Assembly: GCF_002897035.1 (NCBI RefSeq)
Contig: NZ_BAUX01000005.1
Location: 1 to 64,000 of the forward strand
Reading direction: 5' to 3'
Source: Methylopila sp. Yamaguchi
Lineage (GTDB): Bacteria > Pseudomonadota > Alphaproteobacteria > Rhizobiales > Methylopilaceae
DNA length: 64,000 nt
Positions 54,870 to 64,000 of the stretch are shown here, piece by piece. Position 1 is the first letter of the stretch, and each line of letters opens with the position of its first letter. Made by a program: the position numbers and the translations under genes. The notes beneath the pieces were generated by a model. It had not been told where the DNA came from. It saw only the letters and a program-made list of their open reading frames with translations, and ran no database searches.

Positions 54870-54902
54870 GAGCGGGACCAGGACGCGGACGCTCCACGGG
54901 TC

Positions 54903-54917
54903 GCAATCGGCATGCCA
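54903..54917 (-). promoter_or_regulatory. Sigma-54 promoter of fliK-flgD
   Basis: The minus strand reads TGGCATGCCGATTGC. The -24 GG and -12 GC are exactly 10 bases apart, and the flanking TGGCA and TTGC match the RpoN consensus. Transcription would start near 54891, leaving a leader of about 22 nt before the fliK ATG. Confidence 0.8.
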
Positions 54918-54960
54918 TCCAAAGCGCTTGGAAAATGAGGGGTTTGGCCGCCCTAAAGCC

Positions 54961-54975
54961 CGGCGATTTCTGCCG
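54961..54975. promoter_or_regulatory. Probable FlbD-binding inverted repeat upstream of fliK
   Basis: CGGCG-ATTTC-TGCCG is an almost perfect inverted repeat of the form GGCR-N5-TGCC, centred about 77 bp upstream of the predicted sigma-54 start. Two elements of the same form lie in the fliF and flhA promoters. The position suits an enhancer for a sigma-54 activator such as FlbD. Confidence 0.6.
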
Positions 54976-55109: not shown

Positions 55110-55161
55110 ATCCACCGACGTAACGTCATCGAAGACGGGAAAGTCGCGTGTGAGAGTACCG

Positions 55162-55437
55162 ATGACGGAATTGCATCGCGGGCGGACCAAATATGTGATC
55201 GGACCGGACGGTAGTCCGCTGACGATCGCCGATTTGCCCCCTTCCGACACGAAACGCTGGGTCATCCGCCGGAAGGCCGAAGTCGTCGCCGCAGTGCGTG
55301 GCGGGCTTCTCAGCCTGGAGGAGGCCTGCCAGCGCTACACCCTCACGGTCGAGGAGTTCCTGTCGTGGCAGGCCTCGATCGACCGGCATGGCCTCGCCGG
55401 TCTGCGCACCACGCGGATCCAGCAGTATCGGGCCTGA
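55162..55437 (+). CDS. sciP: CtrA inhibitor SciP (DUF1153)
   Basis: SciP binds the cell-cycle regulator CtrA and blocks its activation of target promoters. The protein (91 residues from the ATG) contains YVIGPDGSPLTIADLPP, RWVIRRKAEVVAAVRGGLLS and YTLTVEEFLSWQ, which are nearly invariant in alphaproteobacteria. A GTG four codons earlier (55150) is an alternative start; the ATG matches known relatives better. It lies between the fliK and fliF promoters and ends before a strong terminator. Confidence 0.95.
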   Translation: MTELHRGRTKYVIGPDGSPLTIADLPPSDTKRWVIRRKAEVVAAVRGGLLSLEEACQRYTLTVEEFLSWQASIDRHGLAGLRTTRIQQYRA

Positions 55438-55460
55438 TCTGCCCAAGATCAGAACGTAGC

Positions 55461-55516: not shown

Positions 55517-55555
55517 TTAACGACCCGTTTACCATACGGCAGGCAAATCTTGCCG
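55517..55555 (+). promoter_or_regulatory. fliF promoter: CtrA-like box plus GGCA-N5-TGCC repeat
   Basis: TTAA-N7-TTTACC (55517-55533) is a CtrA-type box. After ATACGGC follows GGCAAATCTTGCC, an inverted repeat of form GGCA-N5-TGCC (55542-55554). The block ends about 42 bp before the fliF GTG. The flhA upstream region has the same parts at the same spacing. Confidence 0.7.
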
Positions 55556-55596: not shown

Positions 55597-57288
55597 GTGA
55601 ACGGGTTCGTCGGATTCTTGCGTTCCTTTGGGGCCGGCCGCATCGCCGCGATGCTCGCCGTCGTCCTCGCGCTCGTCGGCTTCTTCGCCTTCACGATCGT
55701 GCGCTTCTCCCAGCCGCAGATGGTGGCGCTGTTCACCGATCTGTCGATGACCGACTCCGCGGCCATCATCAAAGAGCTCGAGCAGCAGAACGTGCCCTAC
55801 GAGCTCCGCAACGAGGGCGCGGGCATCCTGGTGCCCAAAGAGAACGCGGCGAAGCTCCGGATGGGCCTCGCCGAAAAGCGCCTGCCCTCCGGCGGCGGCG
55901 TCGGATGGGAGATCTTCGACAAGGGCGACGGCTTCTCCGCGACGAGCTTCGTCCAGAACGTCAATCACCTGCGCGCGCTCGAAGGCGAGCTCGCCCGCTC
56001 CATCAGCTCGCTCAACCGAGTGGAGGCCGCGCGCGTCCATCTGGTGATCCCCGAAAAGCCGCTGTTCACGCGCGACGCGCCGCAGCCCTCCGCCTCCATC
56101 GTGGTGCGGGTCCGCGGCGACCTCGACGGCGGCGAGATCCGCGCCATCCGCCACCTGGTCGCCTCGGCCGTGCAGGGCCTGAAGCCGGACAAGGTCTCGC
56201 TGGTCGACGAAGGCGGGCGTCTGCTCGCCGACGGCGCCGAGGGCGAGGACGGCGGGACCGCCGCGGCGGAGGAGCGCACCGTGACGCTGGAGCGGCGGCT
56301 CCGGGAGAGGGCGGAGGCCATCCTCGGCCGCATCGTCGGCCCGGACCGCGCCCGCGTCGAGGTGCGGGCGGAGATGGACAACACCAAGTCCACCGTCACC
56401 GCCGACACCTTCGATCCGGAAGGCCGCGTGGTGCGCTCGACGCAGACGCGCGAGGAGAGCTCGCAGTCGAGCCAGCCCGTCGACCAGACCGTGTCGGTCG
56501 GAAACCAGATCCCGAACGGCGCGGCAGCCCAGGCTCAGGCTCAGGCCGCGACCGGGCCGAAGGACGCCTCCAACAAGACCGAAGAGGTCGTGAACTACGA
56601 GATCTCGCGCACCACGCGGACCGAAGTGAAGGACGGCGGCCGGCTGAAGCGGATCTCGGTCGCGGTCCTCGTCGATGGGGTCTACACGCAAGGGCCGAAC
56701 GGCGACGCCGCCTACGCCCCCCGCAGCCAGGAGGAGCTCGACCGCATCGGCGCGCTGGTGCGCTCCGCGGTCGGCTTCGACCAGGCCCGCGGCGACGCGA
56801 TCGAGGTGGTCAATCTCCGCTTCGCCACCATGCCCGCCTCGCAGAGCGCGGGCGACGCGCCGGGACTGTTCGACTTCACCCGGGACGACATGATGCGCTG
56901 GGCCGAGCTCGGGGTGCTCGCGCTGCTCACCATTCTGGTCCTGCTCGTCGTGGTCCGCCCGCTGGTGCGCAAGGCGCTGTCGCCCGACCGGGTCATGCTC
57001 GTCGCCAACGGCGCCGGCGGCGTCAGCATCGTCGGGGCGGGCGAGGCAGGCGGCGCGGGGGGCGTGGTCCAGCTGACGGGCGGCGGGACCCCCGCCCTGG
57101 CCTCGCCCGACGGTTCGGTCGCGGGGCTTCCCGTTGGGACGGACGCGGAGGCCGCCCAGCGGATCGCGATCGCCGAGCTGTCCGGCCGCGTCCAGTCGCA
57201 GTCGGTCCAGCGCATCGGCGAGCTGGTGCAGAACAACCCGAACGAGACGGTCGCCATCATCCGCCAGTGGCTGCAGGAGCCCGCCTGA
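55597..57288 (+). CDS. fliF: Flagellar MS-ring protein FliF
   Basis: FliF forms the membrane ring and export-gate housing of the flagellar motor. The 563-residue protein has a first membrane segment at about residues 17-38 ([17 protein letters not shown]), the secretin-like ring domains with [16 protein letters not shown] and [15 protein letters not shown], a second membrane segment near 440-465, and a C-terminal FliG-binding tail ([20 protein letters not shown]). The GTG start has GGGAGA just upstream. It is first in the fliF-fliG-fliH-fliN-flbD operon. Confidence 0.97.
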
Positions 57289-57289
57289 G

Positions 57290-58330
57290 ATGGCCCGCGC
57301 TCCCGTCCGCTCCACCGCCGTCGCCACCACCGACCGCTCGCTGACGGGCGTCGAGCGCGCGGCGGTGCTGATGCTCGCGCTCGGCGACGAGCACGGCGCG
57401 CCGATCTGGAAGCTGCTCGAGGACGATGAGATCCGCGAGGTCTCCTCGGCCATGGCGAGCCTCGGGTCGATCGAGATGTCGAAGGTCGAGACCCTGCTGG
57501 TGGACTTCGTCGGCCAGCTCTCGGCCGCGGGCGCGCTGATGGGCAACTTCGACTCGACCGAGCGTCTGCTCGCGCGCTTCCTGCCGAAGGACCGCGTCGG
57601 CACCATCATGGAGGAGATCCGGGGTCCCGCCGGCCGCACCATGTGGGAGAAGCTCTCCAACATGCAGGAGGCGGTGCTCGCGAACTACCTCAAGAACGAG
57701 TATCCGCAGACCGTCGCCGTGGTGCTGTCGAAGATCCGCGCCGAACAGGCCGGCCGCGTGCTGTCGATCCTGCCGGAAGACTTTGCGCTCGACGTGGTCA
57801 AGCGCATGCTCGCCATGGAGAACGTGCAGAAGGACATCCTCGAGCGCGTCGAGCAGACGCTCCGCGCCGAGCTGATGTCGAACCTGTCCCAGACCTCGCG
57901 GCGCGACCCGCACGAGCAGGTCGCCGAGATCTTCAACTCCTTCGACCGGCAGACCGAGACGCGCTTCCTGACGAAGCTCGACGAGGAGGCGAAGGAGAGC
58001 GCCGACCGCATCAAGCAGCTGATGTTCACCTTCGACGACCTCGCAAAGCTGAACGCCGCCGGCGTCCAGACCCTGCTGCGCGACGCCCCCCGGGACAAGC
58101 TCGCCGTCGCGCTCAAGGGCGCGAGCCAGACCATGCGCGACTTTTTCATGGGGAACATGTCGAGCCGGGCCGCGAAGATGATGTCGGACGACATGGAGGC
58201 GCTCGGCCCCGTGCGCCTGAAGGACGTCGACGAGGCCCAGGCGATCCTGGTCGGCGTCGCCAAGGATCTGGCGGCCTCGGGCGAGATCGTGATCTCGAAG
58301 AACAAGGAGGAGGACGACTTTGTCTACTGA
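57290..58330 (+). CDS. fliG: Flagellar motor switch protein FliG
   Basis: FliG couples the rotor to the stators. The 346-residue protein has the N-terminal FliF-binding domain ([15 protein letters not shown]), a middle domain with [14 protein letters not shown], and the C-terminal torque domain with charged residues in [21 protein letters not shown]. It starts 1 bp after the fliF stop and overlaps fliH by 11 bp. Confidence 0.97.
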
Positions 58331-59021
58331 CCTCCCCTCCCCGCGCGAGGACGGGCGCCCGCGACCCGCGCGCTTCCTGTTCGACCAGGACTTCGGCGCG
58401 CCGGCGGTCCCGAAAGCGCCGGCCGCCCCCCAAGGACCTGCGATGGTCTCCCTGGAGGACCACGAAGCCGCGCTCAAGAAGGCCGAGACGTCGGCGTTCC
58501 GCCGCGGCGAGGCCGAGGGCCGCAAGGCCGCCCGCGACGCCGACTCCGCCCGCCTGACGGCCGCCGTGGAGAGTCTCGGCGCGCGGCTTGCGGAAGCCCT
58601 GGCTCAAGCGGACTCGCGCGCCGCCGCCGCCGAGCGCGACGGCGTCGCGCTCGCGCTCGCCCTCGCCCGGAAGATCGCGGGCGCCGCCGTGGCCCGCGCG
58701 CCGATGGCCGAGATCGAAGCCGCCGCCGAGGCATGCTTCCTCGAGTTGCGCCAGGCGCCCCACGTCGCCGTGCGCGTCACGCCCGACGTCGTCGAGCCGG
58801 TGCGCGAGCAGCTTGCGTCCATGGCCCATGAGCGCGGCTTCGCCGGCCGCTTGATCGTTCTCGGCGACCCCGACGTCGCCAAGGGCGACGTGCGTCTGGA
58901 GTGGGCGGACGGCGGCGTCGTGCGCGACTCCGAGGCGGTCGCCCGAGCGATCGACGACGCGATCGCGCAGCACTTCGCCGCCGAAGGCGGCGCCGACGAC
59001 ATCGAAGGAGCGACGCCATGA
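58320..59021 (+). CDS. fliH: Flagellar assembly protein FliH/FlbE-like
   Basis: The 233-residue protein lies where FliH (FlbE in Caulobacter) is expected and has its character: Ala/Glu-rich helices at 45-125 ([20 protein letters not shown]) and a C-terminal globular part ([30 protein letters not shown]). FliH holds the export ATPase FliI. I take the TTG at 58320 as start because AAGGAGGAGG lies about 7 bases before it, inside the end of fliG. The next ATG would remove 41 residues. Confidence 0.82.
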
Positions 59022-59365
59022 GCGCCGGCAAGGACATCCCGCTGCCCGAGCTCGACAACGACGTCGACTTCTCGACGCCGGCCAAGCGCAAGGACGACGA
59101 GTCGCACGAGACCCGGGGCGCCGCAGATCTCGAGGCGGTGTTCGACGTCCCGGTGTCGGTCTCGGCGGTGCTCGGGCGTGCGCGGATCGACGTCGGCTCG
59201 ATGCTGCGGCTGAAGCCCGGCGCCGTGCTGGAGCTCGACCGCAAGGTCGGCGAGGCGATCGACATCTTCGTCAACGACCGCCTGGTCGCCCGCGGCGAGG
59301 TCGTGCTCGTCGACGAGCGGCTCGGCGTGACCATGACCGAAATCATCAAGCCCGACCGGACCTGA
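59018..59365 (+). CDS. fliN: Flagellar motor switch protein FliN
   Basis: FliN forms the C-ring with FliG and FliM. The 115-residue protein ends in a surface-presentation (SpoA) domain: VFDVPVSVSAVLGRARI, LRLKPGAVLELDRKVGEAID, FVNDRLVARGEVVLVDERLG. AAGGAG precedes the ATG, which overlaps the fliH stop (ATGA). Confidence 0.96.
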   Translation: MSAGKDIPLPELDNDVDFSTPAKRKDDESHETRGAADLEAVFDVPVSVSAVLGRARIDVGSMLRLKPGAVLELDRKVGEAIDIFVNDRLVARGEVVLVDERLGVTMTEIIKPDRT

Positions 59366-59379
59366 GCGGAGGACACGCC

Positions 59380-60741
59380 ATGCGCCTCACCATCGTCGGC
59401 CACCTGAAGGGCCAGCTCACCGCCGCCACGCGGATCGCCATGAACCGCGGCGCCGCCGTCACCCACGCCGAGAGCGTGGACCAGGCGATGCGGACGCTGC
59501 GCGCCGGCCGCGGCGCCGACCTGATCATGGTCGACGTCGCGCTCGACGTGCGCGACCTGATGACCCAGCTCGAGGCCGAGCGCTTCCACGTGCCGGTGGT
59601 GGCCTGCGGCGTCGACAACGACGCCGGCGCCGCCGTCGCCGCGATCCGGGCAGGCGCGAAGGAGTACATCCCCCTCCCCCCCGATCCGGAACTGATCGCG
59701 GCGGTGCTCGCGGCGGTCTCGGACGACAGCCGCGACTTCGTGTTCCGCGACCCTGCGATGATCGCGGTCGTCCAGCTCGCGACCCAGATCGCCGCCTCCT
59801 CGGCGAGCGTGCTGATCGCCGGCGAAAGCGGATCGGGCAAGGAGATGCTCGCCCGCCACCTTCACCAGAAGTCGCCCCGCGCCGGCAAGGCCTTCGTCTC
59901 GGTCAACTGCGCCGCGATCCCGGAGCAGCTGCTCGAGAGCGAGCTGTTCGGCCACGAGAAGGGGGCCTTCACCGGCGCCACCGCGCGCCGCATCGGCAAG
60001 TTCGAGGAGGCTTCGGGCGGGACGCTGCTGCTGGACGAGATCTCCGAGATGGACATCCGGCTCCAGGCCAAGCTCCTTCGCGCGCTGCAGGAGCGGGTGA
60101 TCGATCGCGTCGGCGGCTCGAAGCCGGTGCCGGTCGACATCCGCGTCATCGCGACCTCGAACCGCAACCTCGCCGACGAGGTGCGCCGGGGAACGTTCCG
60201 CGAGGACCTGCTTTACCGCCTGAACGTCGTCACGCTCAAAATTCCGCCGCTGCGGGAGCGTCCGGCGGACGTCGCGGCGCTCGCGACGCACTTCGCCAAG
60301 AAATACGCCGCGGCGAACGGCTTGCCGCTGCGGCCGATCTCGACGGACGCGCGGGCGAGCCTGATGCGCTCGCGCTTCCCCGGCAACGTGCGCGAGCTCG
60401 AGAACACCATCCACCGCGCGGTGCTGCTCGCGACCGGGCCGGAGATCGGCGCCGAAGCGATCTTGAGCCCCGACGGCGCGCCGGCGCCCGGCCGCGAGAC
60501 CGGCCTCGCCGCGCGCGCGCTGGAGACGGCGGAGAGCGTGACCCGCGGCTTCGTCGGCCGCACCGTGGCGGACGTGGAGCGCGAGCTCATCATCGACACG
60601 CTCGGCCACACCCAGGGCAACCGCACCCACGCCGCCAACATCCTCGGCATCTCGATCCGGACCCTGCGCAACAAGCTGAACCAGTACGACGACGAGGGCT
60701 TCGCCATCCCGCCGCCCCAGGGCGGCGTCGCGGCGGCGTAA
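59380..60741 (+). CDS. flbD: Sigma-54-dependent flagellar regulator FlbD
   Basis: FlbD activates sigma-54 flagellar promoters and represses early ones such as fliF. The 453-residue protein has an N-terminal receiver-like region (1-115), an AAA+ domain with Walker A GESGSGKE (148-155), the sigma-54 loop GAFTGA (195-200), GGTLLLDEISEMDIRLQAKL, and a Fis-type helix-turn-helix near 415-440 (THAANILGISIRTLRNKL). The receiver lacks the N-terminal acidic pair, starting IVGHLKG, so phosphorylation is unlikely. It is last in the fliF operon. Confidence 0.95.
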   Translation: MRLTIVGHLKGQLTAATRIAMNRGAAVTHAESVDQAMRTLRAGRGADLIMVDVALDVRDLMTQLEAERFHVPVVACGVDNDAGAAVAAIRAGAKEYIPLPPDPELIAAVLAAVSDDSRDFVFRDPAMIAVVQLATQIAASSASVLIAGESGSGKEMLARHLHQKSPRAGKAFVSVNCAAIPEQLLESELFGHEKGAFTGATARRIGKFEEASGGTLLLDEISEMDIRLQAKLLRALQERVIDRVGGSKPVPVDIRVIATSNRNLADEVRRGTFREDLLYRLNVVTLKIPPLRERPADVAALATHFAKKYAAANGLPLRPISTDARASLMRSRFPGNVRELENTIHRAVLLATGPEIGAEAILSPDGAPAPGRETGLAARALETAESVTRGFVGRTVADVERELIIDTLGHTQGNRTHAANILGISIRTLRNKLNQYDDEGFAIPPPQGGVAAA

Positions 60742-61488: not shown

Positions 61489-62835
61489 TCAGGCGGCGCG
61501 CACCTGCGCGAAGAACCGCTTCACGGTGCCGTCGATCTCCTCGACCTTCAGCTTCAGGTCGCCAGACAGCCCGTAGACGTCGGTCGAGGCGGCGGCGGTC
61601 TCCCCGTTCGCCTGCTTCACCACGGCGATGGCGCCCACCACCTCGTCGGAGTTGCCGGCCGCGCGCTGGGCGCTCATGGCGATCTCCTGGGTCGCCGCTT
61701 CCTGCTGCTGCACGGCCGCGGAGATCGAGCCCGCGATCGTCGCGACCTCGGCGATCGTCGCGAGGATCGAGGCGATGTCGTCGACCGAGGTGCGGGTCGA
61801 GGCCTGCACGGCCGCGATCTGCGTGGTGATCTCGTCGGTCGCTTCGGCGGTCTGGCGGGCGAGCTCCTTGACCTCCGATGCGACCACCGCGAAGCCGCGC
61901 CCCGCCTCGCCCGCGCGCGCCGCCTCGATGGTGGCGTTCAACGCGAGCAGATTGGTCTGGGCTGCGATGCTGGAAATCATCCCGACGACCGAGCCGATGC
62001 GCTCCGTGGTGTCGGCCAGGCTCGAGATCGTGCGGTTCGTGCGCTCAACCTCGGTCGACGCCTGCTGCGCGGTGAGGAAGGAGCGCTTGGCCTGCTCGCC
62101 GATGTCGCGGATCGAGGTCGCAAGCTCCTCGGTGGCGGCGGCGGAGGCGCGCACCACCTCGGAGGTGCCGGTCGCGGCCGCCGCCATCGCGTCGGCGCGG
62201 TCGTCTGTCGCGGCCGCCGCGGCCTCGAGCGTGGAGGCGGTCTCGCTCATCCGGGTCGAGGCCTGCCCCATGCTGTCGAGCGACGCCGCCATGACCGCGT
62301 CGAAGCCGTTGATCGCGGTCTCGATGGCGGCGTTCTTCGCCGCGAGATCGCCCATGATTTTGTCCTGGTAGACCGAGATCGCGAGCTCCATGTCGAGCAT
62401 CACCGCCTTCGAGACGGCGCGCGCGAGCCGCATCGCCTTCGGCCCCGAAAACCGGTGGGTTTCGCCGAGGATCTGGAACAGACGGTCCTGCACGAAGGCG
62501 TAGCCGCCGATGTACCAGCGCGGCTCCAGCCCGATGCGGACGTGCGCCATGCCGATCCGGCGGACGCTGTCGAAGTAGCCGGCGTCGAAGGCGCCCGAGA
62601 ACAGGCGCTCCCAGTGCCCGCCCTGCGCCGACTTCAGCCGGGGCTCGTTGCCCCGGACCCGCGCCGCGAGCTCCGGCTGGCTGGAGAGATGGGCGTAAAA
62701 CCCGTCCAGGATCGATCCGAGGTGCGGCTGGACCACCGTCCAGGCGGCGCGCAGCCGCTGCTTCGCCTCCTCGTCGATCTGGAGAAATAAAAGATGCGAG
62801 GACGCGTCGCCCGACGCGCCGGCGTGATTGGTCAT
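61489..62835 (-). CDS. Globin-coupled soluble chemoreceptor
   Basis: The 448-residue protein joins a sensor globin (about 15-165) to a chemotaxis signalling domain (about 200-448). The globin has the proximal haem ligand candidate His98 in [20 protein letters not shown]. The signalling tip is the hairpin [20 protein letters not shown] followed by [14 protein letters not shown]. No membrane segment is present, so it should be a cytoplasmic oxygen or redox sensor of the HemAT type feeding CheA. It is divergent from flhA. Confidence 0.92.
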
Positions 62836-62929: not shown

Positions 62930-62968
62930 TTAACCTCTCGTCAACCATACGGCCGGCATTTTCTGCCG
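62930..62968 (+). promoter_or_regulatory. flhA promoter: CtrA-like box plus GGCA-N5-TGCC repeat
   Basis: TTAA-N7-TCAACC (62930-62946) is followed by ATACGGC and then by GGCATTTTCTGCC (62955-62967). The distance from the first TTAA to GGCA is 25 bp, exactly as in the fliF promoter. The block ends about 30 bp before the flhA ATG. Confidence 0.7.
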
Positions 62969-62997
62969 AGCGGAATGCGAGAGTTGCGGGGCGAGGC

Positions 62998-64000
62998 ATG
63001 TCGGACGTGACGGTGTCGGCGGATCGGGGAACACCCCCGGCCGCCGTCGGAAACGGCTTCGCCCTGCCCCCAAGCCTTTCGAAAGCTTGGGGATTCCTGC
63101 GCACTGGAGACATGGGGCTCGCCCTCGGCGTCCTGGTCATCCTGTGCGTGCTGATCGTCCCGCTGCCGCCGCTGATCCTCGACCTGCTCCTCGCGGTCTC
63201 GATCATCCTGTCCGTATTGATCCTGATGACAGCGCTGTTCATCGAGAAACCGCTCGAATTCTCGGCGTTTCCAACGATTCTCCTGGTCGCCACCATGCTT
63301 CGGCTGGCGCTCAACCTCGCCTCGACGCGGCTGATCCTCGGACACGGCCACGAGGGCACGGACGCCGCCGGCCACGTCATCGAAGCCTTCGGCAACTTCG
63401 TGATGGGCGGCAACTTCGTCATCGGGATCATCGTGTTCGCGATCCTGATCATCGTGAATTTCGTCGTCATCACAAAGGGTTCGGGCCGTATCGCCGAGGT
63501 CGCCGCGCGCTTCACCCTCGACGCCATGCCCGGCAAGCAGATGGCGATCGACGCGGATCTGTCCGCCGGCCTGATCGACGAGGCGACCGCGAAGGTCCGC
63601 CGCAAGGAGCTCGAAGACGAATCGACCTTCTTCGGCGCCATGGACGGCGCATCGAAGTTCGTGCGCGGCGACGCGATCGCGGCCCTGCTGATCACCTTCA
63701 TCAACGTCATCGGCGGCATCATCATCGGCGTCGGCCAGAACGGCCTTGGGTTCGCGGACGCCGCGCACTCCTACACGCTGCTGTCGGTCGGCGACGGCCT
63801 CGTCAGCCAGATCCCCGCGCTCATCGTCTCGACCGCGGCCGGCATGCTCGTCTCCAAGGCCGGCGTCTCGGGCTCCGCCGACCGCGCGCTAGTGAAGCAG
63901 CTCTCCGGCTATCCGAAGGCGCTCGGCATCGCCGCAGCGGTCATGGCGGTCATGGCGCTGCTGCCGGGCATTCCGCTGATCCCCTTCATGGCCCTCGCCG
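62998..64000 (+). CDS. flhA: Flagellar export gate protein FlhA, N-terminal part (cut by window end)
   Basis: FlhA is the main gate protein of flagellar type III export. The visible 334 residues cover the membrane half: several hydrophobic segments ([36 protein letters not shown]) and the conserved cytoplasmic loop [38 protein letters not shown] and [18 protein letters not shown]. The ATG at 62998 begins [11 protein letters not shown]. The C-terminal cytoplasmic half lies beyond the window. Confidence 0.95.

Follow-up and report, generated by a model that had tools for sequence, protein, structure and literature searches.

A conserved CtrA box and palindrome composite at early flagellar operons of Methylopila and its order, a candidate promoter unit for CtrA and FlbD

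The window analysed here, 64,000 nucleotides of contig NZ_BAUX01000005.1 from Methylopila sp. Yamaguchi (positions 1 to 64,000), carries the flagellar genes fliF and flhA, whose upstream regions look alike. This raises the question of whether the two share one promoter unit and which proteins would act on it. An earlier note on this DNA had proposed a composite of a CtrA box, the heptamer ATACGGC, and a GGCA-N5-TGCC repeat serving as the operator of FlbD. The unit is real, well conserved, and functionally coherent, and we consider that it is probably a promoter through which CtrA activates and FlbD represses early flagellar operons (probability about 0.83). The scheme is already known from Caulobacter fliF; what is new is its breadth, the set of operons, the predicted geometry of the starts, and a lead to minC.

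The element upstream of fliF and flhA

The genes fliF, fliG, fliH-like, fliN, and flbD all lie in the same direction on the plus strand. The first, fliF (55597..57288, GTG start; TIGR00206 over cut-off), is followed by fliG (57134..58330 as a whole open frame, with the true start further in; TIGR00207 over cut-off), a fliH-like gene (58320..59021; NF004691, E 1.5e-43, below cut-off), fliN (58901..59365, again the whole open frame with the true start further in; TIGR02480 over cut-off) and, as the last gene of the run, flbD (59380..60741; NF050807, 820.5 bits with a cut-off of 750). The FlbD of the window has an equivalog score above cut-off and contains both the GAFTGA loop, the sigma54 contact, and an HTH. 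The flhA gene (62998..64000, plus strand; TIGR01398, E 1.2e-147, a fragment below cut-off) runs off the window. Between flbD and flhA there is a DUF1345 gene and then, on the other strand, a gene for a protoglobin-MCP fusion, a globin-coupled chemotaxis sensor (61489-62835, minus strand). Upstream of fliF is a gene for a DUF1153 protein (55150..55437, plus strand; PF06627), a family that we take to be that of Caulobacter SciP, the CtrA antagonist.

Read directly in the window, the fliF block starts at 55517 as TTAACGACCCGTTTACC-ATACGGCA-GGCAAATCTTGCC, that is, a CtrA-type box (55517..55533), an 8-bp spacer (55534..55541), and a palindrome regarded here as a putative FlbD-type operator (55542..55554), all on the plus strand. 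The flhA block starts at 62930 and reads TTAACCTCTCGTCAACC-ATACGGCC-GGCATTTTCTGCC, with the CtrA-type box at 62930..62946 and the putative operator at 62955..62967, also on the plus strand. The distance from TTAA to GGCA is 25 bp at both genes, so that the two-block layout, coordinates, and identical spacing given in the earlier note are exact. The full pattern TTAA-N7-TNNACC-N8-GGCA-N5-TGCC was found twice in the window compared to 0.01 times expected, and both copies were exact although up to two mismatches were allowed. None of 100 shuffles of the window matched this count of 2. By contrast, the palindrome GGCA-N5-TGCC by itself occurred 4 times versus 1.37 expected, a count reached in 6 of 100 shuffles and not significant.

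The genome-wide search that the note had suggested gave a similar picture. The palindrome in the form CGGCA-N5-TGCCG occurred at 23 places in the genome versus 57 for the reversed control, whereas TTAA-N17..25-GGCA-N5-TGCC occurred at 5 sites versus 1 for its reversed control. The signal is carried by the pairing of the palindrome with the CtrA box, not by the palindrome alone. Three of the five sites have the 25-bp spacing, and these are at fliF, flhA, and flgB. The flgB composite is located outside the window at C1:461758 on the minus strand, where FlgB is the best NCBIfam family for the gene at a score below its cut-off. The fourth site, in the fliX-flgI intergenic region, has a spacing of 21 bp, and the fifth, between minC and a CHASE4-GGDEF-EAL gene, has a spacing of 22 bp. 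At the fourth site the CtrA box and palindrome lie between divergent fliX and flgI (L122:8418-8452; G000:C17:68417-68451).

Target operons and conservation in relatives

We searched 150 genomes of the order and found 145 composite sites, 58 of which are within 450 bp upstream of a fliF match. From the other 87 sites we fetched 60, and 58 of these precede flgB (33, comprising 29 assigned by best FlgB match and 4 first recognised by the FlgC frame that follows and then verified as FlgB, with 44-66% identity), flhA (21), or fliO (4, namely L261, L265, L278, and L279, one of which rests on weak matches and a reading of the sequence). Of the remaining two, one precedes a gene in the stretch that separates flbD from flhA in G409. 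The other is an exact composite at G481:C1:983024 (L307) before a 478-aa frame without assignment, in a genome with neither FlbD nor an over-cut-off fliF. From this sample, the composite appears to mark early flagellar operons almost exclusively. The description of an early-flagellar control unit of this lineage holds as regards the early operons, but the unit is wider than the lineage and has flgB as its third member. At flhA, the composite was present in 14 of 21 loci with flhA apart from flbD compared to 1 of 20 where flhA directly follows flbD; L045, L046, L053, and L055-L058 are examples of the latter arrangement with the separate composite missing.

Near fliF, the exact palindrome was present in 61 of 79 loci (78 related loci and the window). 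In the 18 loci without it, GGCA is replaced by GGTA or GGAA in 17, and the last is truncated at a contig end. We added 29 further fliF regions that were picked because no exact match to the pattern had been listed there. Among 108 fliF regions, 96 contained the CtrA box and palindrome as a pair at a nearly fixed distance of 24-27 bp (72 at 25, 13 at 24, 8 at 26, and 3 at 27). The 12 without the pair are L039 and L108, which are cut by contig ends, L214, which is a short stretch, L220-L223, in which FlbD is below cut-off, and L114, L209, L215, L227, and L229. Alignment of 49 non-redundant 25-bp promoters showed that the conserved positions are the two boxes, the AT that follows the CtrA box, and roughly 6 bases past the palindrome. 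The heptamer ATACGGC fared differently from the rest of the proposed unit: it is not kept in relatives, where most spacers share only their length and the leading AT. We therefore dropped it as a functional element and, judging from these relatives, its sharing by fliF and flhA is a local coincidence.

Five fliF operators (L209, L215, L221, L227, and L229) with a right half off TGCC are also off on the left, and three of these are still symmetric (GGTA..TACC twice and GGAA..TTCC once). These symmetric departures look as if the operator drifted together with its protein. In 16 of the 96 fliF regions there is a second palindrome 52-53, 62-65, or 105-111 bp upstream of the first. Looping is a possible role for these second sites, yet a distance of 109-111 bp does not correspond to an integral number of helical turns. 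The window itself has a one-mismatch palindrome at 55431-55443; it overlaps the DUF1153 stop and precedes the fliF operator by 111 bp.

FlbD as the candidate binding protein and the predicted starts

FlbD was counted as present in a genome when over cut-off, which was the case in 82 of the 150 genomes. The composite was found in 73 of the 150 and the reversed pattern in none (0/150). It was present in 71 of 82 FlbD-positive versus 2 of 68 FlbD-negative genomes, counts that are not independent events given shared descent; with the first genome drawn per family, the composite was found in 21 of 28 with FlbD versus 0 of 20 without (p 8e-8). The two FlbD-negative exceptions are G505, whose FlbD is divided between two contigs, and G481, which lacks FlbD. 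To exclude a missing flagellum as a trivial cause, we sought fliF in the same genomes and found it over cut-off in 113. Besides every one of the 82 FlbD-positive genomes, these include 31 more: G505, four whose FlbD scores below cut-off, and 26 lacking FlbD. Within a 700-bp stretch at fliF, none of these 26 contained a palindrome with at least two A/T in its centre (0/26), and none contained a CtrA box defined as TTAA-N7 followed by TTAA, TTTA, or TNNACC (0/26). Dropping the A/T-centre filter yielded a palindrome in 1 of the 26. The same type of CtrA box was present in 22 of 25 FlbD-positive fliF regions selected because they lack the exact composite. In genomes with two systems, a CtrA box or palindrome was present at none of four second fliF genes (0/4). 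The four genomes with FlbD below cut-off have a CtrA box at fliF but no standard palindrome beside it.

Across the whole class, the exact composite was found in 11 of 387 genomes, all of them among the 110 with FlbD over cut-off, compared to 6 of 387 for the reversed control. Seven class-level composites are outside the order. Five of these are 3.7-3.8 kb upstream of flbD and on its strand; the other two are on contigs other than that of flbD and are probably chance. Named loci with the composite outside the order include relatives of Caulobacter, Brevundimonas, and Asticcacaulis. Since just 11 of the 110 FlbD genomes of the class have the composite, FlbD does not require this layout, and outside the order most FlbD genomes use another layout than the exact composite.

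The palindrome was also found at a distance from sigma54-like sites. Flagellar loci totalling 1.58 Mb contained 76 sigma54-like sites (score of at least 7 of 8, many of them Bradyrhizobium near-duplicates); 38 of these had an exact palindrome within 170 bp upstream, with about 1 expected by density, and 37 of 39 such palindromes were 87-124 bp upstream of the sigma54-like site. In the two loci that we checked, L049 and L117, the sigma54-like site is before a frame without assignment that is followed by flgD. In the genome of the window, the palindrome is upstream of a sigma54-like site at flgF (104 bp, score 7) and flgE (86 bp, score 6). A position about 100 bp upstream of sigma54 sites is where an enhancer-binding protein should sit, which supports the palindrome being an FlbD operator. 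The recognition region of FlbD, GNRTHAA-ILGISIRTLRNKL, hardly varies among 81 sequences that include Caulobacter relatives and the window. The way in which the palindrome follows FlbD across genomes and its enhancer distance from sigma54-like sites support the assignment made in the earlier note, and we conclude that the palindrome is, with high probability, the operator of FlbD. Within the window, a one-mismatch FlbD-type palindrome (54962..54974, minus strand; GGCGATTTCTGCC on the plus strand) and a sigma54-like -24/-12 element (TGGCATGCCGATTGCG, 54902..54917, minus strand) lie ahead of a fliK-like/flgD run. Both are suggestive only, and together (54902-54974) they form a possible hook-stage target of FlbD.

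Co-occurrence with FlbD does not show binding, and the palindrome could be bound by another protein, such as another NtrC-type regulator, MucR, or SciP, that travels with FlbD through the shared flagellar gene set. The FlbD model also matches other NtrC-type proteins, with 9 matches in the genome of the window. However, among the 31 fliF-positive genomes without over-cut-off FlbD the sole exact composite is that of G505 with its split FlbD, and the distance to sigma54-like sites calls for an enhancer-binding protein. The SciP motif, given in the available text of PMC4287350 as GCGNC-N5-GNCGC mostly at -60 to -90, is another sequence in another place. We regard binding by one of these other proteins as unlikely and prefer FlbD.

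The position of the operator relative to transcription can be predicted from mapped CtrA promoters. The full CtrA box of Caulobacter mostly has its 5' nucleotide near -35, with two named examples at -39, whereas the full box of podJ P1 is at -49 (PMC4287350, available text). In CtrA promoters of R. sphaeroides, -11 is an A, -4 is a G, and the start, a purine, follows the box by 23-24 nt (as described in the accessible part of PMC6180460). Taking position 39 of the composite as +1 places the 5' end of the box at -39, A28 at -11, G35 at -4, and the palindrome at -14 to -2. The search pattern itself fixes A28 and G35 in the 25-bp alignment, whereas no pattern fixes position 39, which is a purine in 49 of 49 fliF, 18 of 18 flhA, and 29 of 31 flgB non-redundant promoters. 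A freer search that tolerated any two mismatches covered 69 non-redundant fliF regions, of which all 69 retain A28 and 64 retain G35. Because the published geometry sets the starts at about 55556 for fliF and 62969 for flhA (both plus strand, both predicted), the operator would cover the -10 region. The predicted -10 sequences, CAAATC within the fliF operator (55544..55549, plus strand, placed from the mapped geometry) and CATTTT, match TATAAT poorly. The ftr4 site of C. crescentus is reportedly placed at about -8, which is the operator centre here.

In the model that we favour, active CtrA would bind TTAA-N7-TNNACC (-39 to -23) and recruit the housekeeping polymerase, and transcription would start at about 55556 for fliF-fliG-fliH-fliN-flbD, at 62969 for flhA, and at flgB. 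FlbD, as a product of the fliF transcript, would then bind GGCA-N5-TGCC (-14 to -2), cover the -10 region, and shut the early promoters off. From sites of the same type some 100 bp ahead of sigma54 promoters, FlbD would switch hook-stage genes on. The direction of the effect at early promoters is carried over from Caulobacter, where, as far as the available text goes, FlbD binds ftr4 at fliF and fliF is repressed (PMC3930126) and fliF-lacZ rises without FliX (PMC3096577).

The left half-site has lost its C in 38 of 69 non-redundant fliF regions compared to 3 of 54 sites at flhA and flgB. We considered and rejected decay of this half-site as a general effect of -10 overlap; flhA and flgB should share it and do not. 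Among sigma54-distal sites there was one case of decay at that position, and the mirrored pattern gave 8 sites in 150 genomes versus 5 for its reversed control. Since flhA and flgB keep the C, its loss appears to be a trait of fliF only, which argues against -10 overlap alone shaping the operator.

FlbD might, alternatively, aid early transcription or merely tune it. The frequent departure of the left half-site at fliF, with the C kept at flhA and flgB, would fit weak repression of fliF. Set against this are the predicted cover of the -10 region by the operator and the repression of fliF by FlbD in Caulobacter. We consider an aiding or tuning role improbable and retain repression as our reading.

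The palindrome resembles TGGCA...TTGC and could therefore be taken for a sigma54 -24/-12 promoter itself. Its spacing is GG-N8-GC at both fliF and flhA, whereas a sigma54 -24/-12 promoter has GG-N10-GC and the Caulobacter RpoN motif, GGCNC-N4-CTTGC, has 10 from GG to GC (PMC4287350, available text). Properly spaced sigma54-like sites are elsewhere, with the palindrome upstream of them, and we rejected the sigma54 promoter on spacing as highly improbable. That two intergenic stretches are alike by chance has a negligible probability: the palindrome alone is not rare, but the composite is expected 0.01 times in the window and is conserved across the order.

Comparison with known systems and a lead to minC

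The closest known system is that of C. crescentus fliF (class II). As described in the available text of PMC3930126 and PMC3096577, early genes there are under CtrA control, as proposed here, and FlbD binds ftr4, represses fliF, and activates middle genes, a scheme that we apply here by analogy. Our sequence comparison with Caulobacter rests on relatives rather than C. crescentus itself; four of these (L106, L111, L113, and L115) have the pair at fliF with GGTA, whereas the window has GGCA. Unlike the Caulobacter fliF system, flhA and flgB here carry the same composite. A second difference is that flhA, being split from flbD, appears to have a separate promoter. The fla2 CtrA promoters of Rhodobacter sphaeroides share the box-to-start distance, A at -11, and G at -4 with those predicted here. 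In contrast to our system, FlbD is absent from the Rhodobacteraceae examined in PMC6180460, and the accessible part of that paper describes no FlbD operator at fla2.

In Methylosinus sporium 5, a flagellar motif termed novel, Motif 3, lies within 40 nt upstream of mapped starts at flgB, motA, flgF, fliF, and flgE (PMC12403871, available text). The composite would just fill these 40 nt. The likeness is one of position and genes, and that Motif 3 is the composite is a guess, offered as a candidate reading for this unexplained motif. More generally, what was a promoter rule in Caulobacter becomes a signature that can be searched for: a single 38-bp pattern locates early flagellar operons in most of the FlbD-bearing genomes that we sampled within the order and predicts their starts. 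The comparative data also provide a concrete candidate sequence for the FlbD operator.

All 13 of the congeneric genomes have an exact CGGCA-N5-TGCC palindrome upstream of minC, with its start 18-20 bp ahead of a CtrA box (MinC 77-100% identical, with three genomes near-identical). The CtrA box is an exact TTAA-N7-TTAA in 12 of the 13 and has TTTA in one. The region is otherwise diverged, with 40 of 265 aligned columns invariant. In the genome of the window, the palindrome and CtrA box are at L121:8096-8193 (G000:C12:23095-23192), and MinC is over its NCBIfam cut-off. These patterns lead us to suggest, at slightly less than even odds, that in this genus FlbD may also control the division-site inhibitor minC, with the state of flagellar assembly feeding through FlbD into the choice of division plane by Min. 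Titles and abstract openings from a literature search that joined FlbD, minC, and flagella showed no such link. In Caulobacter, FliX/FlbD is tied to cytokinesis (a title cited in PMC3930126) and fliX cells are filamentous (available text of PMC3096577). If true, control of minC would be a counterpart of this FliX/FlbD-cytokinesis link and would constitute a testable connection between flagellum assembly and Min. In the genome of the window, the CHASE4-GGDEF-EAL gene is divergent from minC.
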